From the IMG/VR virus record IMGVR_UViG_3300025806_000043, positions 1 to 47,769 of that record: a stretch of 47,769 nt of DNA; one strand, written 5' to 3'. Both the position numbers and the translations under genes were made by a program. Source of the stretch: a virus. The notes under the pieces are model-generated. The model did not search any database and had not been told where the DNA came from. It was given only the letters and a program-made list of their open reading frames with translations. Shown here in pieces: positions 2,636 to 17,010 of the stretch; position 1 is the first letter of the stretch; every line of letters begins with the position of its first letter.

Positions 2636-4169
2636 TGTGGGCTTCTCCGAGGAAGAAGTTCAGCATATGCTGGACAATTTGGACAGCTTCTCAGACGAAG
2701 AAATAGCCGAGATAGACAAGCTAGTAGAAGAGTTAGGTATACGTAAGCGCAACAAGACCGCCTACGATGACCTGATAGAGTTCTGTAAACGGATGCAAGA
2801 TGACTACATAGTAGGGCGTCATCACCGTATTCTTGCTGATCTGCTGATGGCTATTGAGGCGGGTGATGAGGATCGTATCTGCGTCAACATACCTCCACGT
2901 CACGGCAAGTCTCAGTTAGTATCTATATTTTTCCCTGCGTGGTTCTTAGGACGTAATCCTAATAAGAAGGTTATGATGGTGTCACACACCACTGACCTAG
3001 CTGTGGACTTTGGACGTAAGGTACGTAACCTTATCTCCCTAGATGACTACAAAGAGATATTCCCTACAGTTAAGCTAGCGGTAGATAGTAAGTCTGCGGG
3101 GCGTTGGAATACGAATTTCGGTGGTGAGTATTATGCGTGTGGTGTTGGTTCTGCTCTTGCTGGTCGGGGCGCTGACCTCCTGCTCATTGACGATCCCCAC
3201 TCAGAACAAGATGTTATCAACGGCAACTTCTCCGTGTTTGAGAGAGCATACGAGTGGTATACCTTTGGTGCGCGTACTCGTCTTATGCCGGGTGGTCGAG
3301 TAGCTATCATACAGACGCGCTGGCACATGGATGACCTGACAGGTCGTGTGACTTCTGATATGGTGAAGAACGAGAAGTCAGATCAGTTTGAGATTATAGA
3401 GTTTCCCGCCATCTTAGACTCTGAAGATGATGACGGTAAGCCCATACAGAAACCGCTGTGGCCTGAGTTCTTTGACTTAGAGGCGCTGCTACGCACAAAG
3501 TCATCTATGCCCACGTTCCAGTGGAACGCACAGTATCAGCAGCAACCCACCGCAGAAGAAGCGTCTATCGTCAAACGTGAGTGGTGGCGCATATGGGCAG
3601 ACGATGATCCGCCCGACTGTGAGTACATTATAATGTCGCTTGATGCCGCAGCCGAGAAACATAACCGCGCTGACTATACATCACTCACAACATGGGGTGT
3701 GTTCTTCAACGAAGAAGAGGAGATGCACAACCTCATCCTGTTGAACGCTATAAAAGAGCGTATGGAGTTCCCAGAGCTAAAAGAGTTGGCTGTACAAGAA
3801 TATCATGATTGGGAACCTGACGCGTTTATCGTGGAGAAAAAGTCATCGGGGTCAGCCTTGTATCAAGAGATGAGACGTATGGACCTGCCTGTGCAGGAGT
3901 ACACACCGCACCGTGGGTCGGGTGATAAGATGGCACGTCTCAACTCTGTGGCTGACATAATACGGTCAGAACTGTGTTGGGTTCCGCCAAAACGCTGGGC
4001 AGAAGAGTTGGTAGAAGAAATAGCTGGGTTTCCGTTTATGTCTAACGATGACCAAGTTGACTCTACAGTTATGGCCCTGTTGCGTTTTAGGCAGGGTGGG
4101 TTCATACGACTACCTACTGATGTGTGGGATGACGAGCCTGATATACCTCAAAGAGCGGACTATTATTAA
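2625..4169 (+). CDS. terL: Terminase large subunit (packaging ATPase/nuclease)
   Basis: 514 residues, the usual size for the family. This is the motor that pumps DNA into the prohead and cuts the concatemer. The ATPase domain has a Walker A-type loop PPRHGKS (about 90-96) and a Walker B LLLIDD (about 185-190), followed by PHSEQD. The C-terminal RNase H-fold nuclease shows its first acidic residue in MSLDAAAEKHNRADYTS (Asp about 340), a FIVEKKSSG segment and the closing DDQVDS motif. The first 40 residues are an acidic helical extension. ATG 2625 overlaps the upstream gene by 11 bases, consistent with coupling. No nuclease or ATPase residue looks lost. Confidence 0.95.
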   Translation: MKDNVGFSEEEVQHMLDNLDSFSDEEIAEIDKLVEELGIRKRNKTAYDDLIEFCKRMQDDYIVGRHHRILADLLMAIEAGDEDRICVNIPPRHGKSQLVSIFFPAWFLGRNPNKKVMMVSHTTDLAVDFGRKVRNLISLDDYKEIFPTVKLAVDSKSAGRWNTNFGGEYYACGVGSALAGRGADLLLIDDPHSEQDVINGNFSVFERAYEWYTFGARTRLMPGGRVAIIQTRWHMDDLTGRVTSDMVKNEKSDQFEIIEFPAILDSEDDDGKPIQKPLWPEFFDLEALLRTKSSMPTFQWNAQYQQQPTAEEASIVKREWWRIWADDDPPDCEYIIMSLDAAAEKHNRADYTSLTTWGVFFNEEEEMHNLILLNAIKERMEFPELKELAVQEYHDWEPDAFIVEKKSSGSALYQEMRRMDLPVQEYTPHRGSGDKMARLNSVADIIRSELCWVPPKRWAEELVEEIAGFPFMSNDDQVDSTVMALLRFRQGGFIRLPTDVWDDEPDIPQRADYY

Positions 4170-11720: not shown

Positions 11721-11940
11721 AGGCGGTCTTGGCAAATGGTTCGGTGAAGAGTGGACCGATGTTAAGACGGGTAAAGCCTGCGGACGTAAATCCGCTAAAG
11801 GCAAGTCCAAACGTCCCTATCCTGCCTGTCGCCCTAAGAAAGTGGCGTCTAAGATAACTAAATCTGAGGCCACAAAGAAAACTGGGCCTAAACGTGTAAA
11901 ATGGTCTACTACTGCTAGTGGTAAGAAGAGGACTAAATAA
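11695..11940 (+). CDS. Very basic small protein (DUF5872-like)
   Basis: 81 residues from a GTG start that overlaps the previous gene by 26 bases. The core KGGLGKWFGEEWTDVKTGKA, then CGRKSAK and YPACRPKK, fits the domain I recall as DUF5872 (GLxKWFxExWVDxxxxxxCGR then YPxCxP). It has two conserved Cys. The stop overlaps the next ATG as TAATG. Structural or DNA-associated role is likely but unproven. Confidence 0.65.
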   Translation: MAKAPKKGKGGLGKWFGEEWTDVKTGKACGRKSAKGKSKRPYPACRPKKVASKITKSEATKKTGPKRVKWSTTASGKKRTK

Positions 11941-12626
11941 TGGCTACAGTCGTACCTGATCTACCTGAGTTGTTTGAAGAAGCCTTTGAACGGGCTGGCT
12001 TGCAGATGCAATCTGGGTATGACTTACGTACTATTCGTCGTAGTCTTAATATCTTAACTCTAGAGTGGCAGAACAGGGGTCTCAACCTGTTTACTATTGA
12101 CTCTGGTACTGTCGATCTGGTCGCAGGGCAGATAGATTATAGTATGCCCGTAGATACCATAGACATTATTGAGCATCAGCTACGTACTGGTACAGGTACA
12201 AATCAAATAGACACAGCTTTACAGCGCGTTAGCGTGTCTACATACGCACAGCAGACTAATAAAAACACTGTAGGACGGCCCACGCAGATATATGTGCAGC
12301 GGCTACCTACAGAAGTAAAGTTCACACTGTGGCCCACACCGGACACTACACAGGCTTACAAACTACTATACTTCCGTCTCAAGGGTATTGATGGACTTGC
12401 ATCAGGTGTGGGAGGAGAGACGAGCAACATACCCCCACGGTTTGTACCTGCACTCGTATCAGGGTTAGCGTTTCACGTAGCTATGAAGAAACCTGAAGCT
12501 GCGGCTAGGGCGGTGCCTCTTAGAGAAGAGTATGAGTATCAATTTAAGTTAGCGGCATATGAGGACCAAGAACGTGCGTCTTCTATATTTGTACCGTTCC
12601 AAACCTTTCACGGTGGTATGAGATGA
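11940..12626 (+). CDS. Neck/head-tail adaptor protein
   Basis: 228 residues, coupled to its neighbour (TAATG upstream, ATGA downstream). The opening LPELFEEAFERAGLQMQSGY, then RTIRRSLNILTLEWQNRGLN and LFTIDSGTVDLVAGQIDY, is the pattern of podoviral adaptor proteins that ring the portal base. The tail PLREEYEYQFKLAAYEDQER is a helix of the type seen in such proteins. It would assemble after packaging to link portal and tail. A second adaptor-like protein occurs at 14561-15208. Confidence 0.7.
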   Translation: MATVVPDLPELFEEAFERAGLQMQSGYDLRTIRRSLNILTLEWQNRGLNLFTIDSGTVDLVAGQIDYSMPVDTIDIIEHQLRTGTGTNQIDTALQRVSVSTYAQQTNKNTVGRPTQIYVQRLPTEVKFTLWPTPDTTQAYKLLYFRLKGIDGLASGVGGETSNIPPRFVPALVSGLAFHVAMKKPEAAARAVPLREEYEYQFKLAAYEDQERASSIFVPFQTFHGGMR

Positions 12627-13411
12627 GCTACGCGTCTGGTAAACACGCATACGGTATATGTGACCGGACAGGGTTTAGATACCCACTAGAAGACCTTGTA
12701 TACGAGTTTCAGGATGGACACCGTACTGGCTTTCGCGTTGGCAAAGATGTAGTTGATCCAGACCAACCTCAAAACTTCTTAGGGCGTATCCGCGTAGTTG
12801 ATCCACAATCACTGCTTGATCCAAGACCTGATGCTTCTCCCGGACGTGGTTTATTTGGTTGGAACCCCGTAGGACACACCCTTGTTCACTTAACAGGACA
12901 AGTAGGTAGTGTTACTTTAGACATTCCCGTACCAGAAAGTAATACTGTCACGGGCGTAGCAGCGTCTGGTTCTGTGGGTACTGTTAGTGTACTTGCGGGA
13001 GACGATATTGACGTTTCAGTTACAGGCATAACAGGTACAGGCGCTTCAGGCGCTACTACTATAACTACAAACATATTTGCGGTAACGGTAGCCAGCGGCA
13101 CTAATCCATACGGCACAGGCAATAAGTTCTACATAGATGGCGTTGTTAGTCCGACAATTAGTATTGCAGAAGGTTCTACCTTCCGGTTCGATCAGTCCGC
13201 CTCTAGTAATAGTAGTCACCCATTACGCTTTAGCACTACCGCCAATGGCACACATGGTGGTGGTTCTGAGTACACTACAGGCGTAACCACATCAGGAACG
13301 GCTGGACAAGCTGGTGCATATGTCCAGATAACTGTAGCTAACAGCGCACCAACCTTATACTATTACTGCGTAAACCACAGCGGTATGGGCGGTACGGCTA
13401 ACACACCATAG
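12623..13411 (+). CDS. Virion-region protein with C-terminal cupredoxin-like domain
   Basis: 262 residues. Residues 1-60 form the small phage domain beginning CDRTGFRYPLEDL and ending DPDQPQNF (a variant of the widespread CDxxGFK...HPQ domain). Residues about 107-150 hold two copies of the VTGVAxxGxxGxVxV repeat that also builds the 15943-17010 protein. Residues about 152-262 look like a cupredoxin beta-barrel: strand FAVTV, then KFYIDGVVSPTISIAEGSTF, His199 in SSHPLRF, and YYYCVNHSGMGG. His199, Cys249, His252 and Met255 match the type 1 copper ligands His, Cys-x2-His-x2-Met as in amicyanin. Copper binding is inferred. Similar domains occur in marine phage tail proteins. The gene is coupled by ATGA. 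Confidence 0.75.
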   Translation: MSYASGKHAYGICDRTGFRYPLEDLVYEFQDGHRTGFRVGKDVVDPDQPQNFLGRIRVVDPQSLLDPRPDASPGRGLFGWNPVGHTLVHLTGQVGSVTLDIPVPESNTVTGVAASGSVGTVSVLAGDDIDVSVTGITGTGASGATTITTNIFAVTVASGTNPYGTGNKFYIDGVVSPTISIAEGSTFRFDQSASSNSSHPLRFSTTANGTHGGGSEYTTGVTTSGTAGQAGAYVQITVANSAPTLYYYCVNHSGMGGTANTP

Positions 13412-13422
13412 GAGACTTGAAC

Positions 13423-13884
13423 ATGGCTATGAAGAAAAAAGGTGCCGCTAAGAGCGGTGTACGGAAAATGAAACCCGGAGGGCGCGTTGGCAGTAAGAAG
13501 CCTAACACTAGCGCGGCTAAGAAGAAACACACTCTGGATACGCATCAAGGTGGCAAGCGTATTCGTAGTGATAAGCAAGCTACGATGATACCTATGGACC
13601 TTTCAGGAAAAGCTAGTTCTAGTGGCTATGGCCGCTCACACAAAACCTTAGCAGAAATGTCAACTGGACCTACTCCTAACAAAAAACGGGTTGGTCGCGC
13701 TGGTGCCAGCTTAACCAAGAAGAAAGCTGGTGGTGCTGTCACTAAAAAGATGGGCGGCGGCAAGATGATGAAGAAGGGTTACGCCAAAGGCGGTAAGTTA
13801 GCGAAAATGAGTAAAGGCGGTAGGGGTACTATTGCTCGCGGTAGCGGTGCAGCGCGTCCTCAACGTTTTCGTAAAAACGGCTAA
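13423..13884 (+). CDS. Lys/Gly-rich basic protein with YAKGG motif
   Basis: 153 residues from ATG 13423 with GGAGA upstream; an in-frame TTG at 13417 is less likely. It is almost entirely low complexity: Lys, Gly, Ala, Ser and Arg, ending GAARPQRFRKNG. Motifs include VRKMKPGGRVGSKK and GYAKGGKLAKMSKGG; the latter contains the A-x-G-G motif shared with three other proteins. The extreme basicity suggests DNA or RNA binding inside the head or at the neck. The gene is coupled to the next by a one-base overlap (TAATG). Confidence 0.65.
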   Translation: MAMKKKGAAKSGVRKMKPGGRVGSKKPNTSAAKKKHTLDTHQGGKRIRSDKQATMIPMDLSGKASSSGYGRSHKTLAEMSTGPTPNKKRVGRAGASLTKKKAGGAVTKKMGGGKMMKKGYAKGGKLAKMSKGGRGTIARGSGAARPQRFRKNG

Positions 13885-15942: not shown

Positions 15943-17010
15943 ATGCCACTACCTTTTTCTGGCTGGGGCCGTGGCGGTTGGAGTTCTGGCTCTTGGAATA
16001 GCTTACAAGTAGGAGTATCTGTTACAGGCGTAGCGGGTACAGGGGCTGTTGGTAGCGTAAGCACTACCAGCGGTGTTACTCAACCTGTCACGGGTGTAGC
16101 GGGTACAGGGTCAGTAGGCTCTGTAACGGTTATTGGCGCTGCCAACATAGCAGCTACAGGTCTGGCAGGCACTGGGTCAGTAGGTTCTGTAACGGTTATT
16201 GGCGTTGCTAACATAGAAGCTACAGGGGTTAGCGGCACATCTGCACTTAATACTGTTGTAACTGAGTCTGATGGCAATCTTACGGTGCTTGGCCTTAACT
16301 CTATTGGGTCAGTAGGCGCAACCACTATAATATCAAACTCCGTAATCCCTGTTACTGGTCTTTCCTCTACAGGTTCTGTGGGTGCAGCCGCAACTAGAAT
16401 AGGTATCAACGCTAACATCACAAGTGGTGTGGCAGGAACTGGATCAGTAGGCTCTGTGACTGTAACGGGCCTAGCAAATCAAGCTGTTACAGGAGTTTCT
16501 GGAACTGGATCAATAGGCTCTGTAAGCGTAAACCAAGAGTTTTCTGTAACAGGGGTAGCGGGTACGGGCGCATCAGGAACCGTTAGCGTAAACCAAGGAT
16601 TTGGTGTAACGGGCTTATCGGCTACTGGGGCAATAGGCACTGTTAGCGTAAACCAAGCGTTTTCTGTAACAGGGGTAGCTGGAACAGGGGCGGTAGGCGC
16701 TACAACTATTAATTTCTCCTACTCAGCTACAGGTGTGTCTGGCACTAGCGGTGTTGGCGCTGTTACCATTGAAGGTAAAGCTAACCATACTGTTACTGGG
16801 GTAGCGGGAACAGGGTCTTCGGGTGCTTCGACTATTGATTTTGGGTACTATGTCACAGGAGTAGCAGGCACAGGCGCTGTAGGTACTGTCAGTGTAAATC
16901 AAGCCTTTGCCGTTACGGGTGTATCTGCTACAGGGGCAATAGGTGATACGTTTGTGTGGGAGAAGATTAGCCCCACAAATAACGCAAATTGGATACCCGT
17001 AGTCGCGTAA
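15943..17010 (+). CDS. Repeat-built fibrous protein (VTGVAGTG repeats)
   Basis: 355 residues. After a short aromatic/Gly head (PFSGWGRGGWSSGSWNS), nearly the whole protein is about 15 tandem units of about 19-23 residues. Each starts with a VTGVAGTGxxGxVxV block followed by a variable 5-10 residue segment (for example IGAANIA, VNQEFS). This is a regular beta-strand/turn solenoid pattern suited to a trimeric fibre or surface decoration. The last about 15 residues (WEKISPTNNANWIPVVA) break the repeat and may be a cap. Two units of the same repeat lie in the cupredoxin-bearing protein (12623-13411). The GWGRGGWSSG-type start resembles a repeat seen in other phage tail proteins. Confidence 0.75.
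   Translation: MPLPFSGWGRGGWSSGSWNSLQVGVSVTGVAGTGAVGSVSTTSGVTQPVTGVAGTGSVGSVTVIGAANIAATGLAGTGSVGSVTVIGVANIEATGVSGTSALNTVVTESDGNLTVLGLNSIGSVGATTIISNSVIPVTGLSSTGSVGAAATRIGINANITSGVAGTGSVGSVTVTGLANQAVTGVSGTGSIGSVSVNQEFSVTGVAGTGASGTVSVNQGFGVTGLSATGAIGTVSVNQAFSVTGVAGTGAVGATTINFSYSATGVSGTSGVGAVTIEGKANHTVTGVAGTGSSGASTIDFGYYVTGVAGTGAVGTVSVNQAFAVTGVSATGAIGDTFVWEKISPTNNANWIPVVA
16018..16950 (+). repeat. Tandem degenerate repeats encoding VTGVAGTGxxGxVxV units
   Basis: About 15 in-frame repeat units of about 57-66 bases (one longer, divergent unit at 16204-16360). The DNA is degenerate at third positions, so selection is on protein. Units near 16540-16690 are closest to each other at DNA level (GTTAGCGTAAACCAAG occurs repeatedly), consistent with recent unit duplication. 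Confidence 0.8.

Follow-up and report, generated by a model that had tools for sequence, protein, structure and literature searches.

A cupredoxin-like domain with a candidate type 1 copper site in probable virion proteins of marine phages

GENE LAYOUT AND NEIGHBORS OF A PROBABLE VIRION PROTEIN

The window, a 47.8-kb viral contig, encodes on its plus strand a 262-amino-acid probable virion protein (positions 12623 to 13411) that consists of an N-terminal module, a linker of VTG repeats, and a C-terminal cupredoxin-like domain, a fold known from plant plastocyanin. The ATG at 12623 overlaps the stop codon of the upstream gene (an ATGA overlap), which lies at 11940 to 12626 on the same strand and, by homology, encodes a counterpart of the "portal-adaptor protein" of Pag-Yong1, a freshwater Planktothrix phage. 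The N-terminal module (residues 1 to 85; 12623 to 12877, plus strand) is conserved, belongs to PHROG_28581, and has homologs in related phages. A low-complexity linker of the VTG(I/V)xGTGxxG type can be read in the sequence at about residues 106 to 150 (12938 to 13072, plus strand), and the same type of repeat recurs as VTGVAGTGSVGxVSV in a 355-amino-acid open reading frame at 15943 to 17010. The cupredoxin-like domain occupies residues 152 to 262 (13076 to 13408, plus strand).

The original prediction assigned the four ligands of a type 1 copper protein to this open reading frame, and translation and codon coordinates place every one of them as claimed: His199, the predicted N-terminal histidine ligand, at 13217 to 13219; Cys249 at 13367 to 13369; His252 at 13376 to 13378; and Met255, the predicted axial ligand, at 13385 to 13387, all on the plus strand. 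When the domain was shuffled, the pattern H-x30-70-C-x2-H-x2-M arose in 17 of 200,000 trials. Met255 is the single methionine of the domain, and because Cys249 is its single cysteine, an intradomain disulfide is impossible.

Capsid, adaptor, and virion-protein genes surround the open reading frame. The window's terminase is 45 to 46% identical to those of the marine phage 023Pt_psg01 and the pelagiphages HTVC023P and HTVC027P, and its capsid protein is 63 to 72% identical to those of the same three phages and Pag-Yong1. Within this structural module, the gene sits between the head-tail adaptor homolog and other virion proteins, and its product is probably a structural protein displayed on the particle.

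The N-terminal module also opens the gene that follows the adaptor homolog in Pag-Yong1, HTVC023P, HTVC027P, and 023Pt_psg01. In Pag-Yong1, however, the slot holds this module alone (91 amino acids), and in HTVC023P and HTVC027P, the module carries unrelated extensions; the cupredoxin-like domain is missing from all three. In 023Pt_psg01, the domain is instead fused to the N terminus of the adaptor protein, the product of the neighboring gene. Because related phages either lack the domain in this slot or carry it on an adjacent gene, the domain is a movable add-on, an accessory module gained and lost between structural genes, and this conclusion has strong computational support.

Also in this neighborhood, the stretch at 13884 to 14561 matches PHROG_3704, which is labeled ferredoxin, and has no Pfam match, while its relative in HTVC023P is annotated as PurM. 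Both labels look doubtful.

FOLD AND PROFILE EVIDENCE

Searches of Pfam, NCBIfam, and PDB sequences with the window protein returned no significant relative, and no Pfam cupredoxin model matched it. Cellular homologs of the domain score 16.7 to 19.4 bits against Pfam PF00127, for which the cutoff is 21.2. Since both the window protein and these homologs fall below this cutoff, we place the domain in the wider cupredoxin superfamily and not in PF00127 itself.

In profile comparison, the sequence relationship emerges at a modest probability. An hhalign comparison of a 48-sequence alignment with a profile built from 29 cupredoxins of other genomes gave a score of 29.6 (P = 9.6e-5; probability, 58%), and all four ligands aligned in register with the cupredoxin ligands. 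Control scores reached at most 13.4 for 30 column-shuffled profiles, 17.7 for a reversed profile, and at most 16.3 for Ig-like families. The cellular subset alone gave a probability of 83% (P = 9.7e-6), while the phage subset alone gave a weaker relationship (probability, 22%; P = 0.001).

A confident model of the window domain, built with a 44-sequence alignment, has a mean pLDDT of 91.7 and eight strands. In domain numbering, where H48, C98, H101, and M104 correspond to His199, Cys249, His252, and Met255, His48 lies right before strand 4, Cys98 ends strand 7, and His101 and Met104 fall in the loop between strands 7 and 8; this order of strands and ligands is that of cupredoxins. Foldseek searches of the PDB with this model returned rusticyanin, CueO, and McoA (probability, 0.96 to 0.98; E, about 0.014 to 0.04; TM, about 0.5), with antibodies intermixed. 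A SAR92 homolog, chosen for a loop shorter than that of the window domain, was modeled at a pLDDT of 86 and matched rusticyanin, plastocyanin, pseudoazurin, nitrite reductase, and amicyanin almost exclusively, with 31 matches at an E value of <1e-3 and cupredoxins at an E value of 1.3e-4 (probability, 1.00). A Greek key sandwich of seven to eight strands is supported by the model and by the fold search with the SAR92 homolog, the window model's own matches being ambiguous. The cupredoxin barrel that had been read from the strand pattern is supported by the eight-strand model in cupredoxin order and by the near-exclusive cupredoxin matches of this bacterial homolog.

The antibodies among the fold matches of the window model, together with one relative in BFVD that is named an Ig-domain protein, would fit an ordinary Ig-like beta-sandwich decoration, in which the histidines, cysteine, and methionine coordinate a different metal, such as Zn, or make up a nonmetal structural cluster. 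Yet the Ig-like control families Big_2 and Big_9 reach hhalign probabilities of at most 1.5%, versus 58 to 83% for cupredoxins, and the homolog fold search returns cupredoxins. Moreover, H...C-x2-H-x2-M with Gln as the sole axial substitute is a type 1 signature. An Ig-like domain was rejected on the control profiles, and we regard this reading as a whole as unlikely.

The window model also matches, in BFVD, proteins of S-TIM5, P-SSM2, and other cyanophages, as well as beta-sandwich proteins of Pithovirus and Marseillevirus. The giant-virus entries (A0A481Z6J5, A0A481Z7Q7, and A0A481YVH3) are stand-alone "beta-sandwich proteins" of 124 to 169 amino acids that match by fold.

CONSERVATION OF THE FOUR LIGANDS

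Across 48 diverse sequences, with identities to the window domain as low as 25%, no columns are invariant except H48, C98, H101, and M104. The invariance of His199, Cys249, His252, and Met255 thus holds in this alignment, and the four ligands are present in all 143 of 143 copies of a first set. Cys249, His252, and Met255 reproduce the amicyanin spacing C-x2-H-x2-M, as the original prediction had it.

A larger set, extended to divergent baseplate repeats of cyanophages, held 346 distinct copies without a gap at any of the four ligand columns; 42 further copies that did have such a gap were set aside. All four ligands are kept in 297 of these copies (287 HCHM and 10 HCHQ, the latter being distinct cyanophage baseplate copies), such that Gln is the sole substitute for the axial Met wherever the site is kept. 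Among the remainder, 46 copies keep none of the ligands, 3 keep one, and 0 keep two or three. Because no copy retains two or three ligands, the four residues behave as one site. Most ligand-less copies are orthologs of one another, a single repeat in a baseplate protein of cyanomyoviruses, and the number of loss events is therefore small; the loss is nonetheless concerted. Loci found by peptide pattern could be biased toward the motif, but profile-only matches and tblastn matches in phages, which are free of that bias, agree.

This concerted conservation rules out a chance resemblance. Both it and membership in the family have strong computational support, and His, Cys, His, and Met or Gln occupy the canonical order and topological positions of the superfamily. 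Sequence, fold, and conservation lend good support to an amicyanin-like type 1 site, whose chemistry is predicted from them. Two further features are conserved. Pro almost always follows the first His, at a position where plastocyanin and azurin carry Asn, and so the site may be atypical. A glycine-rich loop, THGGGSEYTTGV, is strongly conserved too.

Could the metal be purely structural? Copper might cross-link the sandwich so that it survives in seawater, with binding left to the loops or to the rest of the protein. All-or-none retention of the ligands fits such a stabilizing role, and baseplate proteins of cyanomyoviruses retain repeats that have no ligands. The persistence of these repeats, however, implies that the fold can survive without the site, such that the metal is not strictly required for it, and the conserved THGGGSEYTTGV loop hints at more than stability. 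We hold a purely structural role to be possible, if on the improbable side.

DISTRIBUTION OF THE DOMAIN FAMILY

PHROGs tie the window protein to tail fiber families, and 225 phage records have the domain by tblastn at a threshold of 1e-5, while at least 356 of 50,697 have it at 1e-3. Nearly all of the phage carriers infect marine picoplankton, namely, Synechococcus, Prochlorococcus, Pelagibacter, or Methylophilales. Phages of these hosts carry the family in abundance, at their attachment organelles. A scan of IMG/VR added at least 598 relatives, and plasmids yielded no match to the domain. Phage carriers are annotated as tail fiber, gp9 baseplate connector, gp7, long tail fiber proximal subunit, or virion structural protein, the last of these labels being that of the homologs in S-TIM5, Syn1, and S-SCSM1. 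In some phages, the domain is encoded by the second gene downstream of the portal gene.

The domain also occurs in marine cellular genomes, including those of SAR86 bacteria and Marine Group II archaea, where it forms the C terminus of lipoproteins and surface proteins. Cellular lipoproteins carry it in 17 of 40 SAR86-family genomes, often as short proteins with a lipobox and a Gly/Ser linker, and the Marine Group II carriers are proteins with collagen repeats. The domain is further found on a cadherin-repeat subtilase and on a PEBP protein. Some loci in single-cell and metagenome assemblies look like phage genes; on inspection, the SAR11 protein of locus L195 starts like a T7-type tail fiber.

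At two SAR86 loci (L109, 5386 to 8376, and L110, 5331 to 8258), a conserved protein of 976 to 997 amino acids follows the gene for the cupredoxin-like lipoprotein. The two versions are 35% identical and have no Pfam match, and the SAR86 gene neighbors examined gave no hint of function.

A protein of this kind had been expected to be unusual in a phage. In the open-access literature, we found no prior description of a cupredoxin, blue, or type 1 copper protein in phages. The window protein is not a one-off but one member of a family widespread in marine phages. Currently, that family is annotated merely as tail fiber, Ig-like, or hypothetical.

RELATIONSHIP TO KNOWN SYSTEMS AND POSSIBLE ROLES

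The closest comparison is with the plastocyanin/azurin family (PF00127), especially amicyanin and pseudoazurin. The phage domain shares with it the predicted eight-strand sandwich, the placement of the ligands, which align in the profile comparison, the C-x2-H-x2-M spacing of amicyanin, and an M-x-G motif at the axial ligand. Unlike members of that family, it has an HP motif at the first ligand and the extra THGGGSEYTTGV loop, and it resides on structural proteins without a signal peptide or redox partner. The axial Gln of the ten cyanophage baseplate copies, with the other three ligands kept, recalls stellacyanin-type phytocyanins, but the setting is a phage, the C-x2-H-x2-Q loop is shorter, and the window copy has Met. 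In its use, the domain resembles the Ig-like accessory domains of phages, which are likewise small beta sandwiches attached to structural proteins of various kinds and come and go between closely related phages; it differs in its fold family and in its conserved predicted metal site.

Type 1 sites are classic electron transfer centers, and the ligand set, including the Gln variant, would fit a redox-active virion protein acting on host electron transport. However, no partner protein is apparent (methylamine dehydrogenase, the partner of amicyanin, was not seen among the window proteins scanned in general annotation), and the domain is fused to fibers, baseplates, and collagen-like and peptidase proteins that provide no redox context. 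Electron transfer would also leave the promiscuous use of a surface module unexplained. We found no evidence for the mimicry of electron transport at the host surface that had been suggested earlier, and electron transfer, possible but unsupported, strikes us as highly improbable.

We favor the reading that residues 152 to 262 form a divergent cupredoxin with a constrained type 1 copper site, a movable C-terminal module at the head-tail connector position with a role in adhesion to the host surface or in stabilization, and we consider this probable. The family is best read as a cupredoxin subfamily that has gone unrecognized and that gives marine phage particles an exposed, metal-loaded surface module. 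Copper binding, ligand geometry, incorporation into the virion, and function are inferences. The apo-domain would be made in the host cytoplasm, and copper would be picked up from seawater or lysate following release; free copper in the cytoplasm is held extremely low, and for this reason loading is likely to occur after lysis. The bound metal would then lock the small beta sandwich, and the domain, shown on the particle, could act as an accessory module for host-surface binding or stabilization, serving marine phages as Ig-like domains serve other phages. Of the direct jobs it could have, the likeliest is to attach the particle to the host envelope, possibly with help from the metal; electron transfer is less likely.

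Alternatively, a copper-loaded particle might be bait, its metal helping to engage a metal uptake receptor of the host. The presence of the domain on tail fibers and baseplates of phages with metal-limited ocean hosts is consistent with this idea, but type 1 sites bury their copper instead of presenting it as a chelate would. Nor was a receptor link found, the conserved neighbor of the SAR86 lipoprotein genes having no Pfam match. The idea is the copper counterpart of the iron "Ferrojan/Trojan Horse" hypothesis, which has already been proposed for tail fibers of marine phages (PMC11705849, PMC12753301); in its copper version, it is speculative and very unlikely. In T4 gp37 and in tail fibers of marine phages, HxH motifs hold octahedral iron at the tip of a trimeric fiber (PMC11705849). 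These iron-binding motifs resemble the present case in that a metal is proposed on a phage fiber with a bearing on attachment to ocean hosts, and they differ from it in that here a folded domain with copper-type ligands is predicted to hold one metal.

Hundreds of ocean phages have the domain on their tail fibers and baseplates, and its four copper ligands are kept, so marine phage particles may carry copper. If the sites do hold copper, then phages carry a metal contested by ocean biology, and copper could affect infection. A broader proposal, which we offer tentatively and think rather unlikely, is that true type 1 copper centers sit on the particles of many marine phages, and perhaps of giant viruses, where, loaded from seawater after lysis, they control host attachment and turn virions into an ocean reservoir of strongly bound copper. 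With the ligands lost all or none, ligand-less copies provide natural metal-free controls.

Finally, some members of the family have uncommon arrangements. Two tandem secreted single-domain relatives (L214/L215) in a 5.7-Mb genome (G200) are the most distant stand-alone members among those found; their sequences have diverged, and all four ligands are kept. On a cyanophage contig (L282), a 996-amino-acid open reading frame starting at 3332 appears to have one cupredoxin-like domain (HCHQ ligands) inserted in a loop of another, whose first half spans residues 377 to 441 and whose second half, with CHM, spans residues 576 to 602. A third copy in the same protein is without any ligand, and similar domain-in-domain arrangements seem to occur at L304, L291, and other loci.
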